A DNA stretch of 64,000 nucleotides from Stackebrandtia endophytica (lineage in GTDB: Bacteria > Actinomycetota > Actinomycetes > Mycobacteriales > Micromonosporaceae): NCBI RefSeq assembly GCF_006716355.1, contig NZ_VFOW01000001.1, positions 1-64,000 on the forward strand, written 5' to 3'. A model generated the notes under the pieces. It was not told the origin of the DNA and made no database searches. It saw only the letters and a program-made list of their open reading frames with translations. Within the stretch, counting starts at the first letter, position 1; each line of letters starts with the position of its first letter. Positions 1,370 through 23,774 of the stretch are shown piece after piece. The position numbers were made by a program, and so were the translations under genes.

Positions 1370-1906
1370 TCAGGATTGCCACCATCGCGCCAGTGACGCC
1401 ACCGCCGGGTCGGTCGATCCCAGGAGTGCGTCCCAGCCGCCGTCGGAGGCGTCCATGGCCAACAGGTCCTCGGTGACCGGTGTGTAGCTGAGGTTATTCC
1501 ATTGGACGGTGTCCGAGGTGTCACCCAGCAGATCCGCGTCGCTCCATGGTTGACCGTCGACGGGTTCGGGCATCGGGTCCAGTGACAGTTCCGGTGGGAA
1601 CTGCGGGTCGAAGGCTTCGGAGTCGGCGGTGTCGACGGCGTCGGGGTCGCTGCCGACGACCTCTTCGTCGGTGGTGTCGACGGTGACGTCGTCGTCGATG
1701 ACGAGGTCGACGTCGGGGCCGTCGCCGTCGTCGGGGGCGTCATCGGGGGACTCGCTGTCGACGGTGAGGTCCTCGTCGTCGCCGAAGTCGTCGTTGTGGC
1801 CGAGGTCGAGGGTGTCGTCGTCCAGCGAGGTGTCGTCGTAGGCGTCGTAGTTCGCCTGGTCGCCGTCACCGTCTTCCGGCCAGGAGTCCGCGGTCACCGC
1901 CATCAC
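1370..1906 (-). CDS. Highly acidic, low-complexity protein of dynamin operon
   Basis: This 177-178 residue protein starts at GTG 1906 or ATG 1903; the GTGA overlap with the stop of the upstream dynamin gene favours the GTG. Roughly the first 110 residues are dominated by Asp/Glu (for example DDTSLDDDTLDL, VDLVIDDDVTVD) with no hydrophobic core, so this part is likely disordered. The last 60 residues are more ordered, with Trp-containing motifs (DGQPWSDADLL, DGGWDALLGS, ARWWQS). I do not recognise a family. Its acidity could suit binding to basic partners or acting as a client-like tail. Translational coupling indicates it is made with the GTPase. Confidence 0.7.
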   Translation of the reverse strand: MMAVTADSWPEDGDGDQANYDAYDDTSLDDDTLDLGHNDDFGDDEDLTVDSESPDDAPDDGDGPDVDLVIDDDVTVDTTDEEVVGSDPDAVDTADSEAFDPQFPPELSLDPMPEPVDGQPWSDADLLGDTSDTVQWNNLSYTPVTEDLLAMDASDGGWDALLGSTDPAVASLARWWQS

Positions 1907-3792
1907 CCTTTCGATTCAGCCGGTGCCCTCGGTAGCACCGCCCTGGTCTTGGCAAGCACCTCGTCGAGTTGCTTGACCTTGGTTCGGTATGCCTCACGTC
2001 GTTTGGTGAGTGCTTCTTTCTTCTTGGTGCGGGTGGCGTTGTCCTGTTTGAGGTTCTTCTCGGCGGCGGCGATCTGCTTGTCGAGTTGTTGGCCGCGCCG
2101 TTCGAGTGCGTCGTCCAACGCCATGTTGAACACGTATTCGATTTCGGTGAACCGGTACTGGATCTCATCTTGCAGTGAGGCACGGGTTTCTTGCAATACC
2201 TCGCGTACCCAGCGTTGCGCCTGTTGCCGGTCCTGGGAGACTTTGCGGCGGTACATGACGAACGCGGCGGCAGCCAGGCCGAGACCGACACCGGAAACGG
2301 TGAGTGCGACTCCGGCGACTCCGGTGGCGGCGATTCCTGCGGCGCCGGCGGCCATGGGGGCCATGCGGCCGATCATCATGGCGGAGCCGGCGGAGGACAT
2401 CACCAGCATGGCGTTGTCTCCGCCGCCTTCACGGCGGGGTTTTGATCCCGATTGCATGCGTAGTTGCGCGTTGATGCGGCCGATGACCTGGGCGAGTTCG
2501 TGTGGCGGGAACATCTGTGCCAGGACTCGGTCGGCGAGGACTTTGAACCGGTGGTCCAGTTCCTGGCTCAGCCGCACCGAGAGGGCGTGTAGGGCCCGGT
2601 CGACCTGTTCGGGCATGCTCTTGATGTCGGCGCGGTTGGACTTCTCGATTTTGTTGAGGAGTTCTTCCTGGAGTTTCTGCACGTAGGTGCGCAACCGGGA
2701 GGTCGCTTCGACGCGGGCTCGCTGGATCTCGGTACGCAGCGCCATGTTGGACTGTTTGTTCTGGCTGCGTTTGAGGGCGGTGACCCGTTTCTTGTCCTCT
2801 TTGAGTTTCTCGGTGACGGCCGGGTCGGGGTTGAGGGTCTTCAACTGTTCGCCCACACCCATGTCCAGTCGCACGAACTCGCTGCGCAGGGTGCGCAGGA
2901 CGTTGGCGTGCTGGAGGATCGATCCCTTCGACCCCAGGTTGATCAGGGAGTGCTGCAGTGACGCGATTCGTGATTCGTCGATGAGGGTCTTGGCGGCCTC
3001 CACCGGCATCGTCAACGCCATTTCGGCCAGACGGGACGACACGGGGAAGAACGGTGCGTTGGCGAACCGGGGCGCGTGGGTCTGCAGGAGCGCGATGTTG
3101 TCATCGCGGATGCGTTGCCAACCCGGGTAGGTGTCGATTTTGGTCAGCGCGAACATCACGAAGTTGACGCGTTTGCTGGCCTCGATCAGGAAGTCCAGTT
3201 CGGGTTTGGAGAACGGTGAGGAGGAGTCGACGACGAACAGAAGCGCGGTCGCGCGGGACACCGCGTCGAGGGCGACCTCGGCGTGTAGGGCGTCCAGGCC
3301 ACCGACGCCGGGGGTGTCGATCAGGGACATGTACTGGAGCAGGGGGGCGCCGTGGCGGATGCGCAGGCGCCGTGGCGGCCGGATCCCGCCGGGCAGTTGT
3401 CCCAGGGTGGTGCCCCAGTCGCGGATGTCGGAGGGGTTGAGGGGAACGGGTACCTCGTTGCCGGGTACGAACGCCTCGACGGTGTGTTGGGCGCCGTGTT
3501 CGAACTCCAGGTAGGAACTGGTGGCGACCGCGGCGTCAACGGGTGACAGGTTCGGGACGCCGATCAACGCGTTGGTCAGGGATGATTTGCCGCGTTTGGT
3601 TTCTCCGACGATGACCATCGCCGGTTTGGAGGTGGCGTCGCGGCGTAGCGTGTCGACGTCTTGGGCGGCGTCGGCGTCGACTTTGCGTAGTGCGGCGATG
3701 CCGTTGGTGACGGCGGTGCGGCACAGTTTGTCGAGTGCGGCGAGTTGTTCCTTGGCGGAGGGTTTCTTCTGGGCCGGGGTCGCGGTGGTCAC
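1903..3792 (-). CDS. Dynamin-like GTPase with hydrophobic segment and coiled coils
   Basis: A 629-residue protein with a dynamin-type G domain: P-loop GETKRGKSS (residues 63-71), switch II IDTPG (158-162) and base-recognition TKID (217-220). A long helical middle (about 290-450) is followed by a Gly/Ala/Met-rich hydrophobic stretch (about 465-520) that fits a membrane-inserting paddle, then a charged coiled coil to the C-terminus. This layout resembles bacterial dynamin-like proteins such as IniA/DynA, which bind and remodel membranes using GTP. The GTG start at 3792 overlaps the stop of the GrpE-like gene by four bases (GTGA), so the two are translationally coupled. Family call is firm; membrane insertion is inferred from hydrophobicity. 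Confidence 0.9.
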   Translation of the reverse strand: MTTATPAQKKPSAKEQLAALDKLCRTAVTNGIAALRKVDADAAQDVDTLRRDATSKPAMVIVGETKRGKSSLTNALIGVPNLSPVDAAVATSSYLEFEHGAQHTVEAFVPGNEVPVPLNPSDIRDWGTTLGQLPGGIRPPRRLRIRHGAPLLQYMSLIDTPGVGGLDALHAEVALDAVSRATALLFVVDSSSPFSKPELDFLIEASKRVNFVMFALTKIDTYPGWQRIRDDNIALLQTHAPRFANAPFFPVSSRLAEMALTMPVEAAKTLIDESRIASLQHSLINLGSKGSILQHANVLRTLRSEFVRLDMGVGEQLKTLNPDPAVTEKLKEDKKRVTALKRSQNKQSNMALRTEIQRARVEATSRLRTYVQKLQEELLNKIEKSNRADIKSMPEQVDRALHALSVRLSQELDHRFKVLADRVLAQMFPPHELAQVIGRINAQLRMQSGSKPRREGGGDNAMLVMSSAGSAMMIGRMAPMAAGAAGIAATGVAGVALTVSGVGLGLAAAAFVMYRRKVSQDRQQAQRWVREVLQETRASLQDEIQYRFTEIEYVFNMALDDALERRGQQLDKQIAAAEKNLKQDNATRTKKKEALTKRREAYRTKVKQLDEVLAKTRAVLPRAPAESKG

Positions 3793-4346
3793 TGGTGGCC
3801 TCCGGCGTTGCGGTAAACGGTGACGATGGGGTTGCGCAGCATGGTGTTGCGGTCGTTGTACCCGAGGGTTTCGACGACGGCGATGACGCCGTCGTGGGAC
3901 GGGTCGGGTGCGGGTGTGGTGCCGCCGGCTTCGTGCCGGGTGGGGTCGAAGCGTTCTCCGACGGGGGCGACGGTGGTGATACCGGCTTCGGTGAGGCCGG
4001 TGCCGATGCGGTCGGCGATGGCTTGGCTGGTGGAGCGGTCCCGAACGTAGATGCAGGTGTTGACGAGGGTGCGTCGTTCGTTGGACAGTTGGTCGATGGC
4101 GGCTCGTGCGGCGGCGTCGGTGTCGGGGATGTGGGCCGGTGCCGCGGCGGGCGCGCTGGTGGCGCGGCCGAGGATCATCAGGACGGCGATGCCGCTGATG
4201 ATCACTCCGATGGCGGCGGCGGCTGCCGCGGTGACATCGAACATGCTGTCGGCGGTGCTGGTGAGTAGCCCGGTGACGGCACCGGTCGCTGCCGCGGCGG
4301 CAATGACCGCCACTGTGGCTATCAGCCGCAGGTGGCTTGTCGACAT
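3789..4346 (-). CDS. Membrane-anchored GrpE-domain protein (DnaK nucleotide-exchange factor-like)
   Basis: ATG 4346 follows AAAGGAG at good spacing, giving 185 residues. The N-terminus has two hydrophobic helices (about 9-29 and 38-62). After a Pro/Ala linker, residues about 90-185 match the GrpE C-terminal beta domain: an AGITTVAPVGERFDP motif, then HEAGGTTPAPDP, a GVIAVVETLGY strand and a final MLRNPIVTVYR. In GrpE this domain inserts into DnaK and opens its nucleotide cleft. The long N-terminal dimer coiled coil of standard GrpE is missing, replaced by membrane helices. It sits between two dynamin-like genes and upstream of a J-domain gene. GrpE homology is my reading of the motif order; exchange activity is inference. 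Confidence 0.72.
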   Translation of the reverse strand: MSTSHLRLIATVAVIAAAAATGAVTGLLTSTADSMFDVTAAAAAAIGVIISGIAVLMILGRATSAPAAAPAHIPDTDAAARAAIDQLSNERRTLVNTCIYVRDRSTSQAIADRIGTGLTEAGITTVAPVGERFDPTRHEAGGTTPAPDPSHDGVIAVVETLGYNDRNTMLRNPIVTVYRNAGGHQ

Positions 4347-4393
4347 CGGTTCTCCTTTATCGAGAGGTGACGAGGTGGTCCGGTGGGTGGTGC

Positions 4394-5905
4394 CTAGTGC
4401 GCTGGGCGGGGTTGTCGTAGTCGCTGCGCGATGAGGTGGAAGCCGCGGGCGACGACGTGTGCGACGCGGGCTTGCGCCGGGGAGGCGCCGCCGACGGCGA
4501 AGGTGCGCCATCGGTTGTTGGCTTCCAGTGCGGCGCGCATCAGTTGTGCGGTGTCGCTGCCGGGGAGACCGAGGACGCGTGCCGGGTCTGAGGTCAGTGC
4601 CAGGCGTGCGACTTCGGCTTCCATGTCGGAGGGTAGTTCGACGGCGCCAGTGGTGACTTGCGCGGCGACTTCGATGAGTCGCAGTCGGTGGTATTCGGGG
4701 TCTTGGATGACCCGTTCGATGGCGTCGCGCAGCATTTCGCGTTCGGCGGGGTGTTCGGTGGAGGAGGCGACGGCTTCGAGCCTGGCCAGTCCCCATCCGG
4801 CTTTGATGGCGTCGGTGCGCAGTTGGAATGCCTGGTTGAGGGTGGTGCGCAGTCGGGGGAATCCGGAGGCGGCGAACAGCATGCGCACGAGTTCTCCGGT
4901 GGCCATTTGTGGGTTGGCGACCAGGTGGGCGATGGCGAAGTTGATGCCGTACAGGTCCAGTAGCCGTAGGAGGCGTTCGCGTTGTTCGGTCGGTACCGGG
5001 CATTCGCGGGTGGCGAACAGGGAGGCGGCGGCCATGAGGATGGTGCGTTCCTCGGCGGGCAGTTCGGCCAGTTTGCGGAGTGCTTCGCAGTCGGCGGCGG
5101 TGAGGCGGCCGGCTTCGGTGGTTTCGGCGAGTAGACCGACGACGGGTACGACGTCGGAGACGACGCGACGCATGACCTGTGACTGGTTGCGGGAGAGGGG
5201 TTCGGCGACCGGCCACGGGTCGCCGGAGGGGGTGGGGGCGAGTTTGTCGACTTTGTTGAACAGGCCCAGTGAGTTGATGGGGTTGCTGGACAGTCGTGAC
5301 GACATGGTGCGGAACGCCTGTAGGGCTTCGAGGTCGTCTTCGCGTACCGATTGGGTGAACACGTAGATGATGGCTTCGGCACCCGATAGCGCCGATTGGC
5401 TGTCGGGGTCGATGTCGTCGGCGATGGGGGCGTCGAAGAGGAATTTGCGGGCTTCGTCGGAGATGGAGGTGTTGACCGAGGACATGCCGGGGGTGTCGAC
5501 CACGGTGAGGTTCTGCAACCGGTCGGAGGTCAAGGTGACGTCGATGTAGGCGATCTGTTCGCGTGGCACGGACAACCGTTGCGGGATCATGCCCGATTCG
5601 TCGAGTGGGAGGCTGGTGCGGGAGCCGTCGCGTTTGACGACGTCGACGCGGTCGGAGGTGCCGTAGCGGAATTGGGTGACCAGTCGGGTGCATTCACCGA
5701 CTTCGGTGGGGGCGACCCGGCGACCGATCAGTGCGTTCACCAGGGTTGATTTGCCGGCTTTGAGGCGTCCGGCGATCGCGACTCGCAGTGGTTGTCCGAT
5801 GCGTTGTCGTACGCCGTCGATTTCGGCGCGGGCTCGGGGCGACAGTCGGGGTGCCAGTTCGCCGCACAGGGCGGCCACCCGGGTACTCAATGGGCCAGAT
5901 GCCAT
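4394..5905 (-). CDS. Dynamin-like GTPase (IniC/IniA-like), first gene of operon
   Basis: About 503 residues from ATG 5905; a TTG at 5914 is an alternative. G-domain motifs are complete: P-loop GRLKAGKST (46-54), switch I ECT (about 71-73), DTPG (137-140) and NKVD (217-220). The rest is helical with no clear transmembrane segment, unlike the second dynamin of the operon. Paired bacterial dynamins usually work as hetero-oligomers, one partner carrying the membrane paddle, so the two here may do so. The GrpE-like gene follows after 47 bases. Neither start has an obvious ribosome-binding site; a strong AAAGGAGGT lies further upstream (5962-5970), without a usual start codon after it. Confidence 0.88.
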   Translation of the reverse strand: MASGPLSTRVAALCGELAPRLSPRARAEIDGVRQRIGQPLRVAIAGRLKAGKSTLVNALIGRRVAPTEVGECTRLVTQFRYGTSDRVDVVKRDGSRTSLPLDESGMIPQRLSVPREQIAYIDVTLTSDRLQNLTVVDTPGMSSVNTSISDEARKFLFDAPIADDIDPDSQSALSGAEAIIYVFTQSVREDDLEALQAFRTMSSRLSSNPINSLGLFNKVDKLAPTPSGDPWPVAEPLSRNQSQVMRRVVSDVVPVVGLLAETTEAGRLTAADCEALRKLAELPAEERTILMAAASLFATRECPVPTEQRERLLRLLDLYGINFAIAHLVANPQMATGELVRMLFAASGFPRLRTTLNQAFQLRTDAIKAGWGLARLEAVASSTEHPAEREMLRDAIERVIQDPEYHRLRLIEVAAQVTTGAVELPSDMEAEVARLALTSDPARVLGLPGSDTAQLMRAALEANNRWRTFAVGGASPAQARVAHVVARGFHLIAQRLRQPRPAH

Positions 5906-14879: not shown

Positions 14880-15680
14880 GTGATCACCAGCGACCAGTAC
14901 CAGCGCATCGGCCAGACCATCAAGACCATCGCCGACGAGGAGATCCTCACCCGGTTCCGGGCCCTCACCGACGCCGACATCGCCGAGAAGAAACCCGGCG
15001 ACCTCGTCACCACCGCCGACCGCGTCGCCGAGGAACGCCTCACCGAGGCCCTCGAACGGCTCCTTCCGGGTTCGGTGACCGTGGGGGAGGAGGCCGTGTC
15101 ACAGCACCCCGATGTCCTGGACCTGCTCACCGGTGACGACCCGGTGTGGGTGATCGACCCCGTCGACGGCACCTCCAACTTCGTCGCCGGTGAACCCGAC
15201 TACGCGTGCCTGGTGTCCCTGGCCGTCAACGGCGTCACGGTCGCCTCCTGGATCTACGCGCCGTCGCTGCCGTTGACCGCCGGCGCCCACAACGGTCACG
15301 GCGCCTGGATCAACGGTCAACCCGCTCACCTGGTGCACCGGCCCGAAACCGATCGCCTCGACATCGTCACCACGCACCGCAACTACACCGCGGGGTTCCA
15401 ACCCACCATCGACAAACTCAACGCCCCCGCCATCACCACCACCGACTGCCGCGCCGCCGGGCTCACCTATGTCGATCTCACCCGGGGCCGTCACGACGCA
15501 CTCGTCTACACCTGGGAGAACCCGTGGGACCACGCGGCCGGTTTGCACCTGTACACCTCCTGCGGAGGCAGTAACGCCACGATGGATGGTCAACCGTTCC
15601 GGCTGTCCGGTGGAAACGCCCTACCCTTCGTCGTCGCGACCAGCCCCGTCATCAAGCGGCTCCACGCGATCTTGGCCTGA
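14880..15680 (+). CDS. Inositol-monophosphatase family phosphatase
   Basis: GTG 14880 gives 266 residues. Metal-binding motifs of the family are present: GEE (69-71), IDPVDGTSNF (92-101) and a late WDHAAG. These bind two to three Mg ions that hydrolyse phosphomonoesters. Substrates in the family include inositol-1-phosphate, histidinol phosphate and 3'-phosphoadenosine nucleotides; the sequence does not choose among them. Its last 60 bases overlap the convergent recombinase gene. Confidence 0.9.
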   Translation: MITSDQYQRIGQTIKTIADEEILTRFRALTDADIAEKKPGDLVTTADRVAEERLTEALERLLPGSVTVGEEAVSQHPDVLDLLTGDDPVWVIDPVDGTSNFVAGEPDYACLVSLAVNGVTVASWIYAPSLPLTAGAHNGHGAWINGQPAHLVHRPETDRLDIVTTHRNYTAGFQPTIDKLNAPAITTTDCRAAGLTYVDLTRGRHDALVYTWENPWDHAAGLHLYTSCGGSNATMDGQPFRLSGGNALPFVVATSPVIKRLHAILA

Positions 15681-16640
15681 CCGCAGGCGCCGCAGTGACC
15701 CGTACATCGAGTTCGAGCGGGCCGCGTCCCGCAGTTCGCGCGCGGTGGCCTTGATGTAGCCCTGTGAGGCCTGTAGGGACCGATGGCCCAGCAGTTCCAT
15801 CACCTCGACCGCCGACGCCCCCGACTGGCCAAGACGAGTCGCGAACGTGTGCCGCAGCGCATGCACCAACGCACCCCGCTCCACTTGATCCGATACCCCA
15901 GCGACCCGATAACACTGCCGCACCAGATACTGCAGTTGATTGCGCGACAGTGGCCGACCACGATGGTCAACGAACAGGACCGCATCAACACCACCAGCCG
16001 ATCCCAACCGAATGCGACGCGATTCCAGGTACTCCACCAACAACGCCTCCAACGGTGGTTCCACCGGCACCACCCGATCCGCATCCCCTTTACCACCCCG
16101 TACCAGCAACCGACGTTCACCAACCGGACCGGCCACGTCCCCGACCCGCAATCCCAACAGTTCGCTGCTGCGCACCCCCGTCAGCAGCAGCACCGCCAAC
16201 ACCGCCAGGTCTCGTTGCGGCCACGGATGACGGCCGCCCCGCGCGCCGGCGGCCACCGCCGACAGCAGTCGTTCCGCGGCGTCCTCGCCCTTCAACGGTT
16301 TCGGTGTCGCACGGCCCGGTCTCGGTTTGGCCACCGCCGACATCGGGTTCCCGGCCACGATCTGTTCACCGACGAGGTATCCGAAGAACGCGTTCCACAC
16401 CGACCAGGCCCGGGCGATGGACGATTTGGCGCGGGACTGCGAGAACGCGGCGAAGCCGATCCGCATCGGACCGACGGTCAGGTCCGCGCACCGCAGACCC
16501 GACACCTCGACTCCCACGGCTTCGGCCACCTCGCGAGCCACCCCCTCCAGATCGCGTCGGTAGGCCGCCACCGTATGAGGTGAATCCTTTCTGGGCGCCC
16601 GCGACACGAAGAACCCCGCCACCGCGTCGGTGAATTCCAC
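15621..16640 (-). CDS. Tyrosine recombinase (XerC/XerD/phage-integrase family)
   Basis: Start taken at GTG 16640 because GGGAGG lies six bases upstream; GTG 16673 is the longer option. The 339-residue protein has an N-terminal SAM-like core-binding domain (about 10-110) and a complete catalytic domain: Arg in TGVRSSELLGL, Lys in RGGKGDADRVVPV, His-x-x-Arg in HALRHTFAT, His in LLGHRSLQAS and the nucleophile Tyr in SQGYIKAT. It should cut and rejoin DNA through a 3'-phosphotyrosine. The chromosome-dimer Xer proteins are near 300 residues; this could be a Xer paralogue or the integrase of an element. It stands next to the vWA/PP2C/kinase operon. No tRNA or direct-repeat attachment site was found. 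Confidence 0.9.
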   Translation of the reverse strand: MEFTDAVAGFFVSRAPRKDSPHTVAAYRRDLEGVAREVAEAVGVEVSGLRCADLTVGPMRIGFAAFSQSRAKSSIARAWSVWNAFFGYLVGEQIVAGNPMSAVAKPRPGRATPKPLKGEDAAERLLSAVAAGARGGRHPWPQRDLAVLAVLLLTGVRSSELLGLRVGDVAGPVGERRLLVRGGKGDADRVVPVEPPLEALLVEYLESRRIRLGSAGGVDAVLFVDHRGRPLSRNQLQYLVRQCYRVAGVSDQVERGALVHALRHTFATRLGQSGASAVEVMELLGHRSLQASQGYIKATARELRDAARSNSMYGSLRRLRSGQDRVEPLDDGAGRDDEG

Positions 16641-17232
16641 CGTCAACCTCCCAACACCGCCAACACGTGTCACGCCGCAGTATCCCGGTGCGGTATGACG
16701 ACCGGTTGTTCAGGGGAGTGCCGGCGTCACGGTCGGACGGCACCCGAAACCACCGGTGTGACCGATGTGGAGGGTGCGGCGGGTCTTGCGGTGGTGGTGG
16801 GTGCGCACGTTCCGGAGCCGACCGGGGCCACGGGGTCGACCGTGGTGAGATCTGGTGCGGGCCGTGTCTCAGAACCTCGATTGCGATGGGGGAACGGTAT
16901 CCACGGGGACCGCCAATACCGTCGTCCCCTGTGGGCGTCGATGGATGATCATCGAATTCGGGTCGGGCCGGTGAACCCGATGTCGACGGCGGAGAGTATG
17001 CCGGACGATAAATGATCTTCAAGACGTTTGACCCGCTCGATGTAGGCAGCCATCCGATCGCTTTGCCCCCATGATGATTGCCCCAACAACCGCCGCCGCA
17101 TTCTGGTCAAACCGGACTACGAATAGACTGCTATGCTTTTCATGCCCAGTGGTGACGCGCGCCATATACGGGCCATGGGGCGAGGGGCGAACGGCTTGGA
17201 GTGCCGTCCCTTTTTGAGAATCGTGGGGTGCG
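16641..17232. other. Intergenic region between recombinase and vWA/PP2C/kinase operon
   Basis: This 590-base stretch has no convincing gene. The right half (about 17030-17160) is lower in GC than its surroundings and holds possible promoter elements, for example TAGACT and TATGCT near 17125-17137, for the operon starting at 17233. It would also be the natural place for a recombination site beside the divergent recombinase, but I see no clear core repeat. Confidence 0.4.
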
Positions 17233-17757
17233 GTGGCGAGCAGGTTCAAACGACGAGAATCACTATCCCCACTGCATATCGCGGGTTGGCTATTCGCCGA
17301 TCTCGCAGTGATCTTGATGGTGATCTTTCTGGCGGTGGGAACCGATCATCCGGTCGAGGCCAACGCCGAACCCGACCCCATCCCGTCGGCTACTCCGGAG
17401 CCGTCCGAGGAACCCGAAGACACCGGGATGTCGGTCGACCCCATCATCACGACGTTGACCACCAACACCTCCAAACTGCGCGACGGCGACGGCAAAGCCC
17501 TGAAGAAACTCCTCCTGAAGGAGTTCGGCGACCTGGAGACCGACGGAGAACACGCCGCCGTCGTATTGACCTTCGGAGGCACCCATGACGCCAACGTCGG
17601 AGCCGACATCGCCGCACACGCGAACAAGGTGATGCGAAGTGCCCTGCCCGACTTCATGGAACTCGTCTCCTCCAAAGGAACAAGAAACTACTGGGACGGG
17701 AAACTGGATGCCGACGAGATCAGATTCGAGGTGTTCCTGCATGTCAAAGACGCCTGA
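17233..17757 (+). CDS. MotB/ZorB-like single-pass protein with OmpA-like periplasmic domain
   Basis: The 174-residue product (GTG 17233, weak ribosome site) has a basic N-terminus, then one transmembrane helix GWLFADLAVILMVIFLAVG with a buried Asp (D23). This is the pattern of MotB, ExbD/TolR and ZorB, where that Asp carries protons. After a Pro/Glu-rich linker (about 40-65), residues 105-172 include VLTFGGTHDANVGADIA, then a NKVMRSALPDF helix and an IRFEVFLHV strand, reminiscent of the GHTD...N motif of OmpA/MotB peptidoglycan-binding domains. Homology is inferred from motif order, not overall identity. It opens a five-gene operon and is followed after 27 bases by a membrane coiled-coil protein. 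Confidence 0.65.
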   Translation: MASRFKRRESLSPLHIAGWLFADLAVILMVIFLAVGTDHPVEANAEPDPIPSATPEPSEEPEDTGMSVDPIITTLTTNTSKLRDGDGKALKKLLLKEFGDLETDGEHAAVVLTFGGTHDANVGADIAAHANKVMRSALPDFMELVSSKGTRNYWDGKLDADEIRFEVFLHVKDA

Positions 17758-17784
17758 TTCCACGGAACGGACGGGGCCGATTCG

Positions 17785-18861
17785 ATGACATTCCGATTCT
17801 CGCAATGGACACCACCCAAACACCTATTGCCGACGATCTCCATGCTGCGAATGGTGTTCCTATTCGCGCCGATCCTGGTCGCCTGGTACGGCGTCCACGA
17901 AGCCGCCGCCGCATACCAACGGCAATTGGATTCCAACCCCGACGCCGAGAGCGAATCATTCTTCCGTGGCTGGCTCGACGGATTCGACGGCACCGTCATG
18001 TTCACATTCGAACAGATGGCCATCGTGGTCTTCTCATCCGTGGCCATCCTGATCCTGCTGTCCATCACCGCCGAAGCCATACAGGCCCGAATCGACCAGG
18101 AAACCACCTCCGACGAGGCCGCACTGTTGAAAGAGGTCAGCCAGACACTGACCAAAGTGGCCGACCAACTCGAGCGGGAACGCAACATCACCGCCGAGGA
18201 ACTCATGGCCGGACTCACCAGCAACGCCGAAACCGTCACTGCACTCACCACGGCCCTACACATCTCGGCGGACAACGCCCGCGACGCCACCACCAAGATC
18301 GCCACCGCCACCGAAGCGATCGAGACGACCACCGTCGGCGCACTCGACACCGCCGCCAAAGCCGCCGACACCATCAAACAGGCCAGCGGAGACGCCGCCG
18401 CATCAATCAACACCGCCACCGGTCAACTGACCAACACCACCGCCAACTTCGCCGCCACCATCGACCGCCAACACCAGGAGACCAACGAGATACTCAGCCA
18501 GTTCAACGACCTGATCACCGACATCGGCGACCGACTCACCGACGACCGGCACAACTTCCAAACCGCGATGGCCCAACTACTGCCCGACCTGATCGCGCAC
18601 ATCGACGCCTCCCACACCGAGGCCCTCGACAGCCACCGCAAAGAACTCACCGCCGTCATCCAGCCACTGGCCGACCAACTGGCCGCCGCCCAGACCAACG
18701 CGCTCGCAGCCCACACCCAGGCCCTGACCACCGCGATGAACCGCCTGGCCGACAGCCACGACCGACACTCCAAAGTCCTCGTCCAATGGGCACCGCACCT
18801 TGCCGCCCACACGCCACGATCCACCTGGCTCCCCTGGAGAAGGAAACGCGAAACCGTATGA
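17785..18861 (+). CDS. Two-TM membrane protein with long coiled-coil tail (ZorA/MotA-like candidate)
   Basis: The 358-residue product has two hydrophobic helices, about 20-44 (MVFLFAPILVAWYGV) and 74-98 (MAIVVFSSVAILILLSI). A long Ala/Thr-rich helical tail follows, of the kind seen in chemoreceptors (TTKIATATEAIETTTVGAL, then NTTANFAATIDRQHQET). MotA, ExbB and ZorA usually have three or four helices, and ZorA also has a long helical tail, so this is at most a divergent stator-ring protein. Pairing with the MotB-like gene just upstream supports a two-component membrane complex. Its stop overlaps the vWA gene start (ATGA). Whether it conducts ions is unknown. Confidence 0.55.
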   Translation: MTFRFSQWTPPKHLLPTISMLRMVFLFAPILVAWYGVHEAAAAYQRQLDSNPDAESESFFRGWLDGFDGTVMFTFEQMAIVVFSSVAILILLSITAEAIQARIDQETTSDEAALLKEVSQTLTKVADQLERERNITAEELMAGLTSNAETVTALTTALHISADNARDATTKIATATEAIETTTVGALDTAAKAADTIKQASGDAAASINTATGQLTNTTANFAATIDRQHQETNEILSQFNDLITDIGDRLTDDRHNFQTAMAQLLPDLIAHIDASHTEALDSHRKELTAVIQPLADQLAAAQTNALAAHTQALTTAMNRLADSHDRHSKVLVQWAPHLAAHTPRSTWLPWRRKRETV

Positions 18862-19520
18862 GCGAACAGATACTGCCGTTTTACGCCGTGTGCGACGAGT
18901 CCTACTCGATGATGGACGAAATCGACGCCCTCAACGAAGGACTGGCCGACCTTCACGAGGCCATCTCCACCGACCCGGTCGTCGCCGACAAAACCCGATT
19001 CTGCGTCATCGGGTTCTCCGACACCGCCGAAGTCCTGCTACCGCTGTGCGACCTCGGAGACCTCGACGAAATGGCCGGACTCACCGTCAAAGGAAGCACC
19101 AACTACGGTGCCGCCTTCGACCTCCTGCGCGACACCATCGAATCCGACATCGCCGACCTGAAAGCCCAGGGACACAAGGTCTACCGACCCGCCGTGTTCT
19201 TCATGTCCGACGGACAACCCAACGCGCCGTGGGAACAGTCCTTCGACAGGGTCACCGACCCGACCTGGCCACTGCGCCCCAACATCGTCGCCTTCGGTAT
19301 GGGCGACGCCCACGAAGACACCGTCAAACGAGTCGCCACCTTCAAAGCGTTCCTCAGCGACGGCACCATGGACCAGGGCGCCGCACTCCACGAATTCGCC
19401 ACCGCGCTGACCAAGTCGATCGTGCGATCCGGATCCACCGCCACCGAAGACGGCGGAGTGAAACTCCAGATCCCCGACCAGGTCCCCGGATTCACTGCAC
19501 TGAAAGTCGACCAGGTGTGA
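18858..19520 (+). CDS. vWA-domain protein (TerY-like)
   Basis: The ATG at 18858 overlaps the preceding stop by four bases. The 220-residue protein is essentially a single von Willebrand factor A domain with an intact MIDAS: DESYS (D13, S15, S17), Thr in KGSTNYG (T81) and Asp in MSDGQPN (D118). TerY-type vWA proteins of tellurite/stress (ter) loci have this size and are encoded with a PP2C phosphatase and a kinase, exactly the next two genes here. They are thought to act as metal-dependent protein-binding scaffolds. The C-terminal segment (about 185-220) may mediate partner contact. Confidence 0.88.
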   Translation: MSEQILPFYAVCDESYSMMDEIDALNEGLADLHEAISTDPVVADKTRFCVIGFSDTAEVLLPLCDLGDLDEMAGLTVKGSTNYGAAFDLLRDTIESDIADLKAQGHKVYRPAVFFMSDGQPNAPWEQSFDRVTDPTWPLRPNIVAFGMGDAHEDTVKRVATFKAFLSDGTMDQGAALHEFATALTKSIVRSGSTATEDGGVKLQIPDQVPGFTALKVDQV

Positions 19521-21169
19521 ACCGCCGAACACGCATACCCATCCGCAACCGCCCGGTATGGGGCGACATGGTCGCGCCCTGGCGCCCCGACACGGTGGGC
19601 CGGGACGCGCGAGCCGCCGAAGCCCCCTGGCGACTGCACGACGACCCCGCCATACCCGACTCCGTACTCGACGGCGGAAGACTCGGACCAGTCGAAGTCC
19701 TCGCCGCCAGCGTACGAGGCTCCTCCCACCGGCACTACGGATCCCGACGCGAAGACGCCGTCGCGGTCGCCGAACTGGACGACCGGTACATCGTCGCCGC
19801 CGTCGCCGACGGCGTGGGATCCACCCGGGACAGCCACGAGGCCTCCCACCGTGCCGTCCAACACCTCATCCGGGTCATCACCACCCAGGTGACCTCCCGA
19901 GACACCCCCAGCCTGGGCGGACTGCGAACCGCCTTCGACCAGGTCAACGCGGCGATAGAAAAGCTGGACACCGGTGCGGCGACCACCCTGACCGCCGTCG
20001 TACTCGACACCGTCAACCCCGACGGCCAAGGCCACACCTACCACCTCGCGCAACTGGGCGACAGCCCCGCAGCCGTGCTCGCCAACGGCCGATTCCGTCG
20101 ACTGTTCACCGACGAACCCGACGGCGCCGTGCACTCCACCACCACACACGCCCTACCCGGATCCGACCTGTCGGCCCTGCAACTGGCCACCGGAACACTA
20201 CGAGTCGGCGAGTCACTGTTCCTGGCCAGCGACGGAATAGCCAACCTGTGGGAAGCCGACGACGTCCAGGAATACCTGGCCCCCCGATGGGCCGAACCAC
20301 CCAGTGGCGTCAACTTCCTCACCCAACTGCAACTGCGCCGCAAATCCTTCGACGACGACCGCTCCGTCGTCGCGATATGGGTACCGCACCGCCGAACCCA
20401 ACGGCCACCGCTGATCCCCGGAACAGAGTTCAACGTCGACCACTACTTCCGCAACGGAAGCTGCCTGTCGGCCGGCCGCATCGGAGACCTGGAGGTCCGC
20501 GCCGCATCAAGCCGCGGAACCCGATCACCTGCCGGTGCCCGCCGCGACGTCGCTCGACTGGCCGCCTTCGGCGACTACGTCGCCGGCGCCGTCACCCGCA
20601 CCACCTCGACCCCCGAAGCCACCGCCGGAGCCGGCGACGGACACCACTTCGCCGTCGAATTCCTCCGCGAACTGGCCACCCGCCCACCCGAAGAACCCAT
20701 CGAATACCGGATCGCCTCGACACTGCGCGAAACGACCCAACGCATGGCCAAGATCTTCCGCAACCTGCACACCGTGGAGATGTCCGCCCTCATCGTGGGA
20801 CCACGACCCGACAGCGGCGAACTGACGTACTGGGCACTGACCTGCGGAGAACAACCCGTCCACGCCGCCGGTCACGCGATACACGGACTCGATCAAATGG
20901 ACACCGGTGCCGTCGACATCGATCAACTCGAGGGCCGCTGGGGAACCCTCGCCGACCCGGTACACCTGCAACGCGGCCCCGTACGTCCCGGCGAAGCACT
21001 GCTGGCGACAACCGGCATCACCGGCGACGGGTTGGGCGAACGAATCGGGGGAGCCGCCGTCAGCGGAGCCCCACTGGGACCCGTCGAGTTCTATCACCAG
21101 GTCGCCGCCGGAAACGACACCGAATCCGCCGCGGTGGCGATGTGGCTGGACCAGGAGTGGGGACGATGA
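19517..21169 (+). CDS. Tandem PP2C-type phosphatase, second copy lacking metal ligands
   Basis: GTG 19517 overlaps the vWA stop (GTGA), giving 550 residues. The first half is a PP2C domain: GSRREDAVAV (D80), AVADGVGS (D98), LASDGIANLW (D239) and FDDDRSVVAIW (about 279-289). The second half (from about 325) aligns with the first block by block: LEVRAASSRGT matches VEVLAASVRGS, GARRDVARLAAFGDYVAGA matches SRREDAVAVAELDDRYIVA, LLATTGITG matches LFLASDGIAN, and ESAAVAMWL matches DRSVVAIWV. The acidic metal ligands are lost in the second copy, so it is likely a pseudo-phosphatase regulatory domain. The active half should dephosphorylate Ser/Thr on a partner, plausibly the vWA, kinase or membrane pair. 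Confidence 0.85.
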   Translation: MNRRTRIPIRNRPVWGDMVAPWRPDTVGRDARAAEAPWRLHDDPAIPDSVLDGGRLGPVEVLAASVRGSSHRHYGSRREDAVAVAELDDRYIVAAVADGVGSTRDSHEASHRAVQHLIRVITTQVTSRDTPSLGGLRTAFDQVNAAIEKLDTGAATTLTAVVLDTVNPDGQGHTYHLAQLGDSPAAVLANGRFRRLFTDEPDGAVHSTTTHALPGSDLSALQLATGTLRVGESLFLASDGIANLWEADDVQEYLAPRWAEPPSGVNFLTQLQLRRKSFDDDRSVVAIWVPHRRTQRPPLIPGTEFNVDHYFRNGSCLSAGRIGDLEVRAASSRGTRSPAGARRDVARLAAFGDYVAGAVTRTTSTPEATAGAGDGHHFAVEFLRELATRPPEEPIEYRIASTLRETTQRMAKIFRNLHTVEMSALIVGPRPDSGELTYWALTCGEQPVHAAGHAIHGLDQMDTGAVDIDQLEGRWGTLADPVHLQRGPVRPGEALLATTGITGDGLGERIGGAAVSGAPLGPVEFYHQVAAGNDTESAAVAMWLDQEWGR

Positions 21170-22098
21170 CCGACGACGAGGTGAAGCTGAGCGACCTGGG
21201 CGACCTCATTCGCCTCGACGACGGTGGCCAGGGAATCGTCTACCGCGTCGGCAACCGACCCGGAATCCTGGTCAAGAAGTACCACGGACCGATCAACGGC
21301 ACCGAACTCCGCAACCTCGTCCGCCGGCCATCCATGATGGATGAGAAGCGACGGGAACTGGTGCTGGCCTCCTCGGCCTGGCCACTGCAAATCGTCGTCG
21401 ACAACGGCAACTGCGTCGGCATGACCATGCGAGAAGCACCCGGCGACTTCCGCAGCCGGATCGGCAACCGGGAAAAACACCTCGAACTCCAGTTCCTCGC
21501 ATTCCGCCCGAAAGGCATGTGGGCCAACCTGATCCTGCCCGACCACGCCCAACGCATCGCGCTACTGCAGCTCTACCTGCGCTACGCCCAGGCACTACAC
21601 AGAAGCGACGTCATCCTCGGCGACATCTCACTGAAAAATTTCTTCTGGTCGATCCGACGCGGCCCCAAGATCTTCGCCCTCGACTGCGACAGCTACCTCG
21701 TCAACGGACGCCCACCGATCATGCCCCCGGTCGAAACCCCCGACTGGCAAGATCCCCAGCTGGCCGCCGGACAACCACCCACCATGGACTCCGACAGGTA
21801 CAAACTCGCCCTCATGGTCCTGCGGACCCTGCTGCAACAACCACAAGCCACCCCCGAAACCGTCAACGCCAACCCGGACGACCATCAAACACTGGGAGCC
21901 ACCATCACCGCGCTCACCGAACGCATGACCCGACAGACCGCCCGGCCCCGCATCGAGGAATGGCTACGCGCCCTATCCGGACGCCCCACCATCGCCCTAC
22001 CCAGAAAACCCGGCTCCCGCACCAACCGTCGCACCACCCCGCGACCGGTCAACCGACCCCGCATCCAACTGCGGCACCGCAGAGACGACACCGCCTGA
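21166..22098 (+). CDS. Protein kinase-like protein of TerY-P triad type
   Basis: ATG 21166 overlaps the PP2C stop (ATGA). The 310-residue product has a Gly-rich loop DDGGQGIVY (18-26), a Lys pair at 37/38 (ILVKKYH), catalytic loop LGDISLKNFF (D153, N158) and a metal-binding DCD in place of DFG (173-175). An activation-like segment VETPDWQDPQ and a DSDRYKLALMVLRTLL helix fit the kinase C-lobe. The divergent HRD/DFG motifs are typical of kinases encoded with TerY-type vWA and PP2C proteins. A basic Arg/Pro tail (about 280-310) may bind nucleic acid or acidic partners. It ends the operon. Confidence 0.85.
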   Translation: MTDDEVKLSDLGDLIRLDDGGQGIVYRVGNRPGILVKKYHGPINGTELRNLVRRPSMMDEKRRELVLASSAWPLQIVVDNGNCVGMTMREAPGDFRSRIGNREKHLELQFLAFRPKGMWANLILPDHAQRIALLQLYLRYAQALHRSDVILGDISLKNFFWSIRRGPKIFALDCDSYLVNGRPPIMPPVETPDWQDPQLAAGQPPTMDSDRYKLALMVLRTLLQQPQATPETVNANPDDHQTLGATITALTERMTRQTARPRIEEWLRALSGRPTIALPRKPGSRTNRRTTPRPVNRPRIQLRHRRDDTA

Positions 22099-22121
22099 CC
22101 CCTCGAAAAACCGGCACGACA

Positions 22122-22634
22122 TCACAGATCCCGCACGTAATGCTCAAACAGCTGCCCGTCAGGCTCGGGAAACCGCCCCTCGAAACGAAACCCCGCCCGC
22201 ACCGCCACCGCCGCCGACGCCACATTCTCGACAGCACAACGAATCACCGCCTGAGCAGCACCCCGCCGCCGGGCAAAACCACACACCAGGTCGACCGCGT
22301 GAGTCATCAACCCCCGTCCCCGCCACTGCGGATACAAGCCATAGGACACGTTGACCCGACCCTCGCCCAAACCCGCGAGCCTGAAGCGGACATCAACGTA
22401 CCCGGCCTGCACACCCACACCGGCCACCATGATCGCGAAAGCCAACGGGTCCGTCCCATCGATCCAACACCGTTGACACCGCCGGGCGTAATCCGTCATC
22501 CCCTCACGTGTGCTCGGGGCCCCACTGAGCCACCGCACCAGATCAGAATCCTCACCGGCCAAATTCGCCTCGACATGCTCCAACCCGAACGGCACCAGGT
22601 CAACCACACCGTCAGACAACTCGACACCCACCAC
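22122..22634 (-). CDS. GNAT acetyltransferase (RimJ/RimL-like)
   Basis: The conserved part begins VGVELSDGVVDLVPFGLEH. GTG 22634 is chosen (170 residues) because the further 86 upstream residues of the open frame have no family character. The acetyl-CoA loop QWRGRGLMTHAV and the late segment NVASAAVAVRAGFRFEG are standard for RimJ/RimL-type N-acetyltransferases. It acylates an amino group of a protein or small molecule; the substrate is unknown. It is convergent with the kinase gene, 23 bases away. Confidence 0.8.
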   Translation of the reverse strand: MVGVELSDGVVDLVPFGLEHVEANLAGEDSDLVRWLSGAPSTREGMTDYARRCQRCWIDGTDPLAFAIMVAGVGVQAGYVDVRFRLAGLGEGRVNVSYGLYPQWRGRGLMTHAVDLVCGFARRRGAAQAVIRCAVENVASAAVAVRAGFRFEGRFPEPDGQLFEHYVRDL

Positions 22635-23243
22635 GACCTGATTCTCGCCATCCGCGACGAGCCCCGCCACCCGATATCTCCCACACCGGCGGGGGACAAG
22701 CAACCCACACCTTGAGACGGCGCCGTCGCGGTGGCCGAACACCATTCGACGCACGTCACACCGCATTACCGATGATCCGGCCGATCGAATCCTCGCCCGA
22801 TTCAACCCCACCGACACCACAAGGAATCGCGCCGACAGTGCTGCGGCGTGCCACGACCCACGACGAGTGACCGGAGGCGGTGGCGCGGCCAATGATCACC
22901 GAAATGGACACCCGGCAAGGGAATCAACACGAAGCACTCTCGCCCACACCCCCACGCACCCACACCTCCACGTACAGGCCCATGTGGAGGTTGCCGCCCT
23001 ATTTCGACCCTTCAGCCCGGGTAGGCCTTGGCTTCGTCGACGACGACAGGGCCCGGCAACTCGGCTTGATGCCGGGCCGCCGTGACCCCGGTCTACTCCA
23101 CCACTCAGTCACCGGCGGCCGCAGTGGCTCCGCCGAGCGAGCTCGACAACGGTCGCCGTGATAGCCAGCCCGGGAGCATCGACCAGGGCCCCGACACGGG
23201 GAGGGGCCGGTAACACCGCCACCGACGTCACCTCACCCGGCGA
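22635..23243. other. Intergenic region, no supported gene
   Basis: About 600 bases between the acetyltransferase start and the end of the ogt gene. Short open frames on the plus strand (for example from 22880) are Pro/Arg/His-rich and have no ribosome site or recognisable domain. The segment 22980-23060 reads YFDPSARVGLGFVDDDRARQ in one frame, which looks more protein-like than its surroundings and might be a gene remnant, but support is too weak to call. Confidence 0.35.
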
Positions 23244-23774
23244 TCACGCCGCCACACCGGACAGCCGGGCATCCACACCACCGCCGACTCCGAACACCTC
23301 CCGGCCACCTTCCAAACCCAACAACCGACGCTTCCGCTCCACACCACCGGCATACCCGGTCAACGAACCGTCAGCACCCACCACCCGGTGACACGGCACC
23401 ACGATCGCCATCCGATTGCGACCATTCGCCGCACCCACCGCACGCGACGCGGTCGGCTTACCCAACGACTCCGCCAACTGCCCATAAGTGACCGTCGTGC
23501 CGTACGGGACGTCCAACAACGCGGTCCACACCCGTTCCTGGAACGGCGTACCACGAAACCCCAAAGGAACATCGAACCGCTGAAGCCGACCGGCGAAGTA
23601 GTCACCCAACTGCTCCTCAAGCGACTCGAAACCCGACGTTACCTCCACACCGAACTCGGCATCGGCGGGACGATACCGCTGATCCTCCAAATACAACCCC
23701 ACCAGCCGGTCATCCTCGGCCACCAGCGTCAACAACCCCACAGGGGACTCCACTACACGAAACACCCGATTCAT
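23244..23774 (-). CDS. ogt: Methylated-DNA-protein-cysteine methyltransferase
   Basis: ATG 23774 follows AAAGGAGTCACC. The 176-residue protein has the active-site block IVVPCHRVVGADGSLTGYAG, in which the Cys accepts the O6-alkyl group from guanine in a single-use reaction, and the preceding helix TASRAVGAANGRN used for DNA minor-groove binding. The length fits Ogt/MGMT enzymes. The Ada-AlkA-type gene is directly upstream on the same strand (33-base gap), so they form a DNA-alkylation repair unit. Confidence 0.95.
   Translation of the reverse strand: MNRVFRVVESPVGLLTLVAEDDRLVGLYLEDQRYRPADAEFGVEVTSGFESLEEQLGDYFAGRLQRFDVPLGFRGTPFQERVWTALLDVPYGTTVTYGQLAESLGKPTASRAVGAANGRNRMAIVVPCHRVVGADGSLTGYAGGVERKRRLLGLEGGREVFGVGGGVDARLSGVAA

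Follow-up and report, generated by a model that had tools for sequence, protein, structure and literature searches.

TerY-P triads, attributed to Anantharaman 2012 and Gao 2020 as cited in PMC11090510, consist of a von Willebrand factor A (vWA) protein, a PP2C phosphatase and a kinase. The passages of PMC11090510 that concern them tie these triads to tellurite resistance, present them as proposed metal-sensing phosphorylation switches and describe their kinases with a C-terminal zinc ribbon or OB-fold; antiphage systems are reported to include TerY-P-like triads whose kinase bears an OB-fold (PMC11090510, citing Gao 2020). For Zorya I and II, a passage of PMC11890865 states that defence needs the cytoplasmic extension of ZorA and the peptidoglycan-binding domain of ZorB. 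Here we describe a five-gene operon at positions 17233-22098 of a 64-kb stretch of the Stackebrandtia endophytica genome (contig NZ_VFOW01000001.1, positions 1 to 64,000, 65.7% G+C; the whole stretch is called the window below), in which a pair of membrane proteins precedes a predicted TerY-P-type triad. Composition, the order vWA-PP2C-kinase, and the catalytic and metal-ion-dependent adhesion site (MIDAS) motifs are the same as in TerY-P. Unlike TerY-P, the triad is preceded by the membrane pair, its kinase has neither a C-terminal zinc ribbon nor an OB-fold, and in 10 relatives the C-terminal domain of PglZ fills the C-terminal place of the kinase.

The neighbourhoods of GAP1-N2 proteins (Kaur 2020, PMC7159879) share the theme of kinase, PP2C and vWA in actinobacteria with the triad of the window; unlike the window, the relevant excerpts of PMC7159879 name a kinase often with a zinc ribbon or transmembrane helices, together with GTPases, and no such pair. 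Tubulin-like genes were linked to OmpA-like, vWA, kinase and GTPase genes in an excerpt of PMC2875224. The terms PP2C, OmpA, MotA and TolQ do not occur in the excerpted part of the BREX (bacteriophage exclusion) survey PMC12839542, and neither MotA nor OmpA is mentioned in that of PMC12458937. Among the literature matches listed, with the original Ter papers, Gao 2020 and the first Zorya papers outside the scope, no description joins such a membrane pair to TerY-P.

The operon comprises the following genes:

17233-17757, plus strand: gene 1, GTG start, 174 residues; single-transmembrane protein with a predicted ExbD/TolR-type helix and a proline-rich linker
17785-18861, plus strand: gene 2, ATG start, 358 residues; two transmembrane helices and a long coiled-coil tail
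18858-19520, plus strand: gene 3, ATG start, 220 residues; stand-alone vWA protein with a complete MIDAS
19517-21169, plus strand: gene 4, GTG start, 550 residues; PP2C phosphatase with a second, degenerate PP2C-like half
21166-22098, plus strand: gene 5, ATG start, 310 residues; divergent Ser/Thr-type kinase

A gap of 27 bases separates genes 1 and 2, and three 4-base overlaps tie genes 2-5 together, in agreement with an earlier note on this DNA, which had read the genes as a five-gene operon on one strand. All five were retained by a purpose-written codon-usage gene caller, which placed the starts of genes 1, 2 and 4 further downstream.

To follow the unit beyond the window, 84,980 species genomes were scanned with a three-row gene 1 profile, which returned 206 stretches, 84 of them encoding relatives; the best 80 of these 84 represent 79 distinct loci. 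All five families stood in one operon, in order, in 48 of the 79 gene 1-seeded loci. The order was 2-1-3-4-5 in 44 of them and 1-2-3-4-5, as in the window, in four from Glycomyces. By family, the full loci belong to Streptomycetaceae (33), Streptosporangiaceae (8), Glycomycetaceae (4), Thermomonosporaceae (2) and Micromonosporaceae (1). Every gap was shorter than 100 bases in 34 full loci; the other 14 contain gaps of 100-499 bases, which probably reflect late start calls. These results indicate that the five-gene operon is real and more than chance, given its recurrence in the same order, and they support the membrane pair plus triad as a recurring unit. Elsewhere among the gene 1-seeded loci, the pair had other partners in 24 of 79, including four outside the types described below (L095, L109, L142, L167); three loci were cut or ended after the vWA gene (L123, L157, L171), and four had no pair called (L139, L156, L166, L169). 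The same profile matched 14 of 396 genomes in a phylum scan, including the window's own; the other 13 reached a best E=1.2e-7 and count as profile matches.

Kinase-seeded searches gave matches in 10/296 genomes of a phylum sample, 26/397 of the order (E<=1e-15) and 66/354 of the family (E<=1e-20). The 11 closest kinase loci outside Streptomyces were defined as the ten with E<1e-90 in the family search plus G707 of the order search, and six of them contained the pair (the window, G438, G027, G906, G907 and G915). Gene 1 was found in 12 of 219 Streptomyces-like genomes at E<=1e-8: seven carry the five-gene form, two have a partner of about 700 residues that adjoins divergent PP2C and kinase genes, with a vWA gene called in just one of these two, two were assigned to a dynamin type by gene size only, and one is unclassified. 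A thirteenth match, L247, was rejected as not being a relative. The kinase profile gave 24 matches at E<=1e-30 in 219 genomes of the same genus. Seven of the nine near-full-length kinases (E<1e-110) came from the five-gene genomes with the pair; of the other two, one lay at the end of a contig, preceded by PP2C sequence, and one stood alone. Lone or partial kinases of Streptomyces-like genomes (L285, L286, L287, L288), three of them partial, appear to be operon remnants; one of the partial kinases is accompanied by gene 2 and a fragment of PP2C/kinase.

A vWA tree was built from 89 rows, of which 55 have the pair and 34 lack it. On this tree, presence of the pair changed three times, compared with a mean of 27.5 after shuffling the labels (0/500 shuffles as low). 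The clustering is shown, but the count is soft because gene 1 had served to find most of the rows with the pair; the tree is a quick one with several very long branches, from which five loci of already-included genomes were dropped and in which three further repeats were kept. Pairless rows within the pair clade were L058 and L059/L195-L197. In L198 (7841-9800), a vWA protein whose N-terminal stretch is TIR-like by eye adjoins a related kinase. The earlier note had named triads consistently lacking the pair as evidence against a joint unit. Such triads do characterise other TerY-P lineages, as the 34 pairless rows show, but not the lineage of the window, where the pair accompanies 6/11 of the close loci and 7/9 of the near-full-length Streptomyces kinases. 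The pairless triads, together with the 24 loci in which the pair has other partners, would suit two independent modules that are merely adjacent and do not cooperate; the close spacing of all genes in 34 of 48 full loci, the spread over five bacterial families and the small number of gains or losses seen in the tree make that explanation very improbable.

A link to defence was found in one branch of relatives. Genes of the BrxD and BrxHI families occur in 11 loci. In ten of them, brxD shares 1-4 bases with the end of the kinase gene and is itself followed by brxHI; L113 has brxD/brxHI upstream instead. In L104, the kinase is followed by BrxD (PADLOC E=7e-175) and BrxHI (1025 bits). Among 110 kinases, a PglZ C-terminal region was present on exactly the ten whose genes overlap brxD, and was identified as such by PADLOC (E=1.4e-18 in L104, 1.6e-17 to 2.8e-24 in the other nine, none in L113):

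Loci with a PglZ C-terminal region on the kinase: L104, L114, L116, L117, L129, L134, L143, L151, L161, L162

These kinases occur in Streptosporangiaceae and one Actinomadura. Eight of the ten loci are full five-gene operons, and L161 and L162 hold only the pair and the kinase, with no vWA or PP2C called. The arrangement resembles Type 2 BREX/Pgl, in that brxD-brxHI directly follow a gene bearing the PglZ C-terminal part; unlike Type 2 BREX, the kinase occupies the position expected for the body of PglZ, and only the C-terminus of PglZ is present. Among the neighbours tested, genes of the DISARM type were also found, namely DrmD and DrmMI beside L161, and a DrmD-like helicase and a IIG/DrmMI-like methylase beside L104. 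L095, which has the pair without the triad, neighbours an HmaA-like helicase, a type I methylase and a weak GajB-like helicase. In this branch the kinase probably controls BrxD-BrxHI, given its PglZ C-terminal region and the position of its gene just before both of theirs. A function of part of the family in defence directed at DNA is well supported by these links.

The five-gene unit is accessory and patchily distributed in soil bacteria. Comparison with sibling genomes (blastn/tblastn against L219-L221) delimited one stretch:

16686-23305, no strand assigned: 6,620 bp without a sibling counterpart, comprising the operon and a GNAT gene at 22122-22892

Three of four siblings hold 184, 552 and 570 bp at this place, and their flanks are collinear with those of the window (inositol monophosphatase, tyrosine recombinase, MGMT, AlkA/Ada); the fourth sibling genome gave no AlkA match at the limit used. 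The kinase was absent from 4/4 sibling genomes at E<=1e-20 and is single-copy in the window's own genome. The tyrosine recombinase at 15621-16673 was rejected as an island integrase: it is not the insert's own because it is present in all three compared siblings, with 70-79% identity. A tRNA-Ala called by ARAGORN at 23385-23476 was likewise rejected as an insertion site, as it lies within the MGMT gene on the same strand and is probably a false call. Gene 2 had no match in plasmid records; three such records were matched by the window kinase and two by a Glycomyces kinase, none covering 80% of a kinase. A scan of viral contigs with the vWA protein gave 116 stretches, none of them confirmed.

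The domains that the earlier note had read in genes 3-5 were recovered, and by composition and intact catalytic motifs the three are predicted to form a TerY-P-type triad. Gene 3 matched Pfam VWA_2 (E=2.3e-7) with the DxSxS, T and D of the MIDAS present, and D13, S15, S17, T81 and D118 were invariant in 10/10 aligned sequences. Gene 4 matched Pfam PP2C_2 (E=1.3e-23, residues 67-259). Comparison of its two halves by blastp (E=2.4e-6, 26% identity) points to a second PP2C-like half, which also appears to be present in the Glycomyces relatives of 536-545 residues; judged by eye, this half lacks the DGVGS-type motif of the first and is perhaps a regulatory pseudophosphatase. Gene 5 contains the divergent GDxSxxN and DCD motifs, with K37, D153, N158 and D173 invariant in 11/11 aligned sequences, to which we assign presumed catalytic roles. 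Across the 55 pair-bearing tree rows, the kinase GDxSxxN and DCD motifs were present in 55/55 and GGQG in 54/55, and the vWA DxSxS in 55/55. Gene 5 had no Pfam match, and the absence of an OB-fold extension is judged solely by this. Genes 3-5 had no match in the PADLOC library, whose content of TerY-P models was not checked.

The tellurite link and proposed metal sensing of classical TerY-P (the same passages of PMC11090510) and the intact vWA MIDAS would fit a tellurite or metal-stress switch in which the pair is the ion-sensing or ion-moving part. Such a role seems remote for this operon, in which the 310-residue kinase has no zinc ribbon (no CxxC pair near its C-terminus) and no other ter gene was seen among the annotated neighbours, the part of the genome inspected for such genes.

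Gene 1 has one N-terminal transmembrane helix, AGWLFADLAVILMVIFLAVG, with an internal Asp, followed by the proline-rich linker and about 100 more residues; Asp23 sits in the motif AGWLFAD inside the helix. With hhalign, a 45-row gene 1 profile aligned with seven ExbD/TolR proteins at a probability of 82.6 and a score of 39.2; the alignment places the FAD Asp opposite that of ExbD. In ExbD/TolR, the Asp of the helix is the ion-pathway residue. Control scores were lower: at most 18.7 for 100 full shuffles of the ExbD alignment, 27.2 for 100 shuffles within blocks of 8, 14.4 for the reversed alignment and 17.0 for five control clusters. The helix alone reached a probability of 20 against ExbD/TolR, and the tail alone 4 against ExbD. 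Single sequence and profile gave nothing significant in the PDB (ExbD, with E=0.15, ranked below a myosin light chain with E=0.054), and gene 1 belongs to no Pfam or PADLOC family, with one weak unrelated match in NCBIfam. The perfect conservation of AGWLFAD is partly selection, because 42/45 profile rows came from the scan of 84,980 species genomes, which was seeded on [IML]AGWLFAD plus a second stretch. The motif also occurs in Glycomyces (found via the kinase) and Virgisporangium (found via gene 2), and in 12/12 Streptomyces-like genomes found by a profile that itself contains the motif, at least three of which were also among the genomes of the motif-seeded scan. Together, these comparisons support a predicted ExbD/TolR/MotB-type transmembrane helix with a buried Asp in gene 1.

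Gene 2 has two hydrophobic helices and a long helical tail, as the earlier note had described. In 31 relatives, the starts of the two helices are separated by 51-68 residues; a third helix shows in five of these relatives at a loose threshold, and F27, P29, W34, A40, F59, W63 and G66 are invariant in the 31 rows. PADLOC ZorA models matched gene 2 at best E=8e-6, confined to the coiled-coil tail. The full-length profile gave 234 PDB matches at E<=1, and the 60 listed were cross-hits of the tail to coiled coils or helical bundles, including ZorA (8qyd, E=1e-4). Gene 2 is regarded as a sequence-novel family, putatively stator-like by its layout, which we take to resemble that of the two-helix, GldL-like gliding stators.

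The pair shows both likeness to and differences from known systems. With Zorya it shares an Asp-bearing single-helix partner and a long-rod subunit in an operon with cytoplasmic partners; unlike Zorya, gene 2 has two transmembrane helices and gene 1 has no detectable peptidoglycan-binding domain. ZorB gave no match and ZorA only the coiled-coil match, with no ZorA sequence compared directly, and ZorC/D, ZorE and ZorF/G were not matched among the five genes and 10 neighbours. With ExbB/ExbD and TolQ/TolR it shares the gene 1 helix; unlike in those systems, gene 1 is below Pfam ExbD detection, gene 2 is unlike ExbB, and TonB/TolA are missing.

Taken together, the five genes may form an accessory, membrane-anchored, phosphorylation-controlled antiphage module, a reading to which we give a probability of about one half; an antiviral role of the set is likely but unproven. 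Several results weigh against it. The pair was missing in 5/11 closest kinase-seeded loci (G707, G009, G864, G829, G919); in four of these five, a gene for a membrane protein of 557-651 residues lies directly before vWA, and the gene 2 profile gave no match to these four proteins. The gene 1 tail, taken for OmpA-like in the earlier note, aligned with OmpA/Pal/MotB C-termini at a probability of just 0.1-0.2 and had no detectable peptidoglycan-binding domain, and the whole profile reached 0.2 against a single MotB sequence; the buried Asp and the MotB-type helix stand, and the OmpA-like tail is not supported. The gene 2 membrane core had no match in the PDB, to seven ExbB/TolQ proteins or to MotA, so the description 'MotA/ZorA-like' rests on layout only, and the homology proposed earlier was not upheld. 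No clear defence gene was found among the 10 flanking genes tested, and no BrxC, PglX, PglZ, PglW, BrxD or BrxHI among the window genes tested; the exception is a set of weak to moderate LeoA/B-like dynamin matches 11-15 kb away. Finally, ten of the 48 full loci share one common Streptomyces chromosomal context (clusters 1-3) and four Glycomyces loci another, a picture of stable inheritance more than of a mobile defence island. The interpretation of the earlier note is thus partly supported: the recurring pair with its TerY-P triad and the helix remain, and the antiphage link runs through relatives tied or fused to BREX/DISARM-type genes. Evidence of defence for the window's own operon is indirect, because none of its 10 tested neighbours is a clear defence gene.

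The stable chromosomal contexts, the membrane anchoring and the lack of defence genes beside the window's operon would also fit an envelope-stress or cell-wall switch instead of an immune system: the pair would respond to tension in the wall or membrane, proteins of the wall or of division would be tuned by the kinase and phosphatase, and BrxD-BrxHI would be late recruits. We consider this unlikely in view of the patchy presence (12/219 Streptomyces-like genomes, none of the four siblings), the remnants and the perfect match between the PglZ C-terminal fusion and brxD-brxHI linkage.

At 1903-5878 of the window, a GrpE-like protein is flanked by two dynamin-like GTPases, of which the first matches the LeoBC model at E=2e-21.

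Where the pair occurs with other partners, further sets were observed. In 12 loci, a protein of 600-870 residues without Pfam match and a GTPase/ThiF set take the place of the triad:

GTPase/ThiF-type loci: L125, L128, L136, L144, L148, L152, L154, L155, L158, L163, L164, L168

DO-GTPase2 was present in 2/2 of these tested and ThiF in the one tested; L155 is counted among the 12 without a pair called, and L136 by its truncated end. The 600-870-residue (cluster-4) protein we take to be GAP1-like. In L105, L160 and L170, the pair adjoins a dynamin-like GTPase and a protein of about 1170 residues without known family, and L244 and L246 were assigned to this type by gene size only; L160 also has a caspase-domain protein (Peptidase_C14) upstream on the opposite strand. 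In L137, L145, L153, L242 and L243, the pair adjoins a protein of about 700-780 residues without Pfam match, beside which a divergent kinase/PP2C set lies in L137, L153, L242 and L243; vWA also occurs in the divergent PP2C-kinase sets of two of L137/L145/L153. L137 also encodes a GAP1 protein (Pfam GAP1-C, GAP1-M).

In the antiphage scheme that we infer, which extends to complex formation, ion use, signal direction and the target of the plain five-gene form, the pair would be anchored in the envelope as an ExbD/TolR-type Asp subunit and a two-helix subunit with a cytoplasmic coiled-coil rod, and the complex would possibly use protons or sodium. A disturbance of the envelope, for example by phage adsorption or DNA entry, would alter the state of the pair or its ion flow. 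The rod would meet the vWA adaptor and relay this state, tipping the kinase/PP2C balance such that the kinase escapes the phosphatase. The kinase would then phosphorylate a host or phage target and halt infection or growth. In the BREX-linked branch, the PglZ C-terminal region would dock the kinase on BrxD-BrxHI.

A wider proposal, which we put forward tentatively and with some doubt, is that the pair is an energised, hitherto undescribed actinomycete membrane module that plugs into TerY-P, PglZ-C/BrxD-BrxHI, GTPase/ThiF and dynamin-like sets. It might then serve immunity at large as a sensor or energiser in the envelope, and phosphorylation would relay a membrane signal to a DNA helicase. The five-gene system would join two defence themes so far kept apart, the stator-like membrane complexes exemplified by Zorya and the phosphorylation switches exemplified by TerY-P. 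The PglZ C-terminal region, present on just those kinases that are linked to BrxD/BrxHI, points to a partner and so makes target recognition by a TerY-P kinase testable; and because the window's lineage carries its own candidate envelope sensor, it can be asked which signal the TerY-P triad reads.

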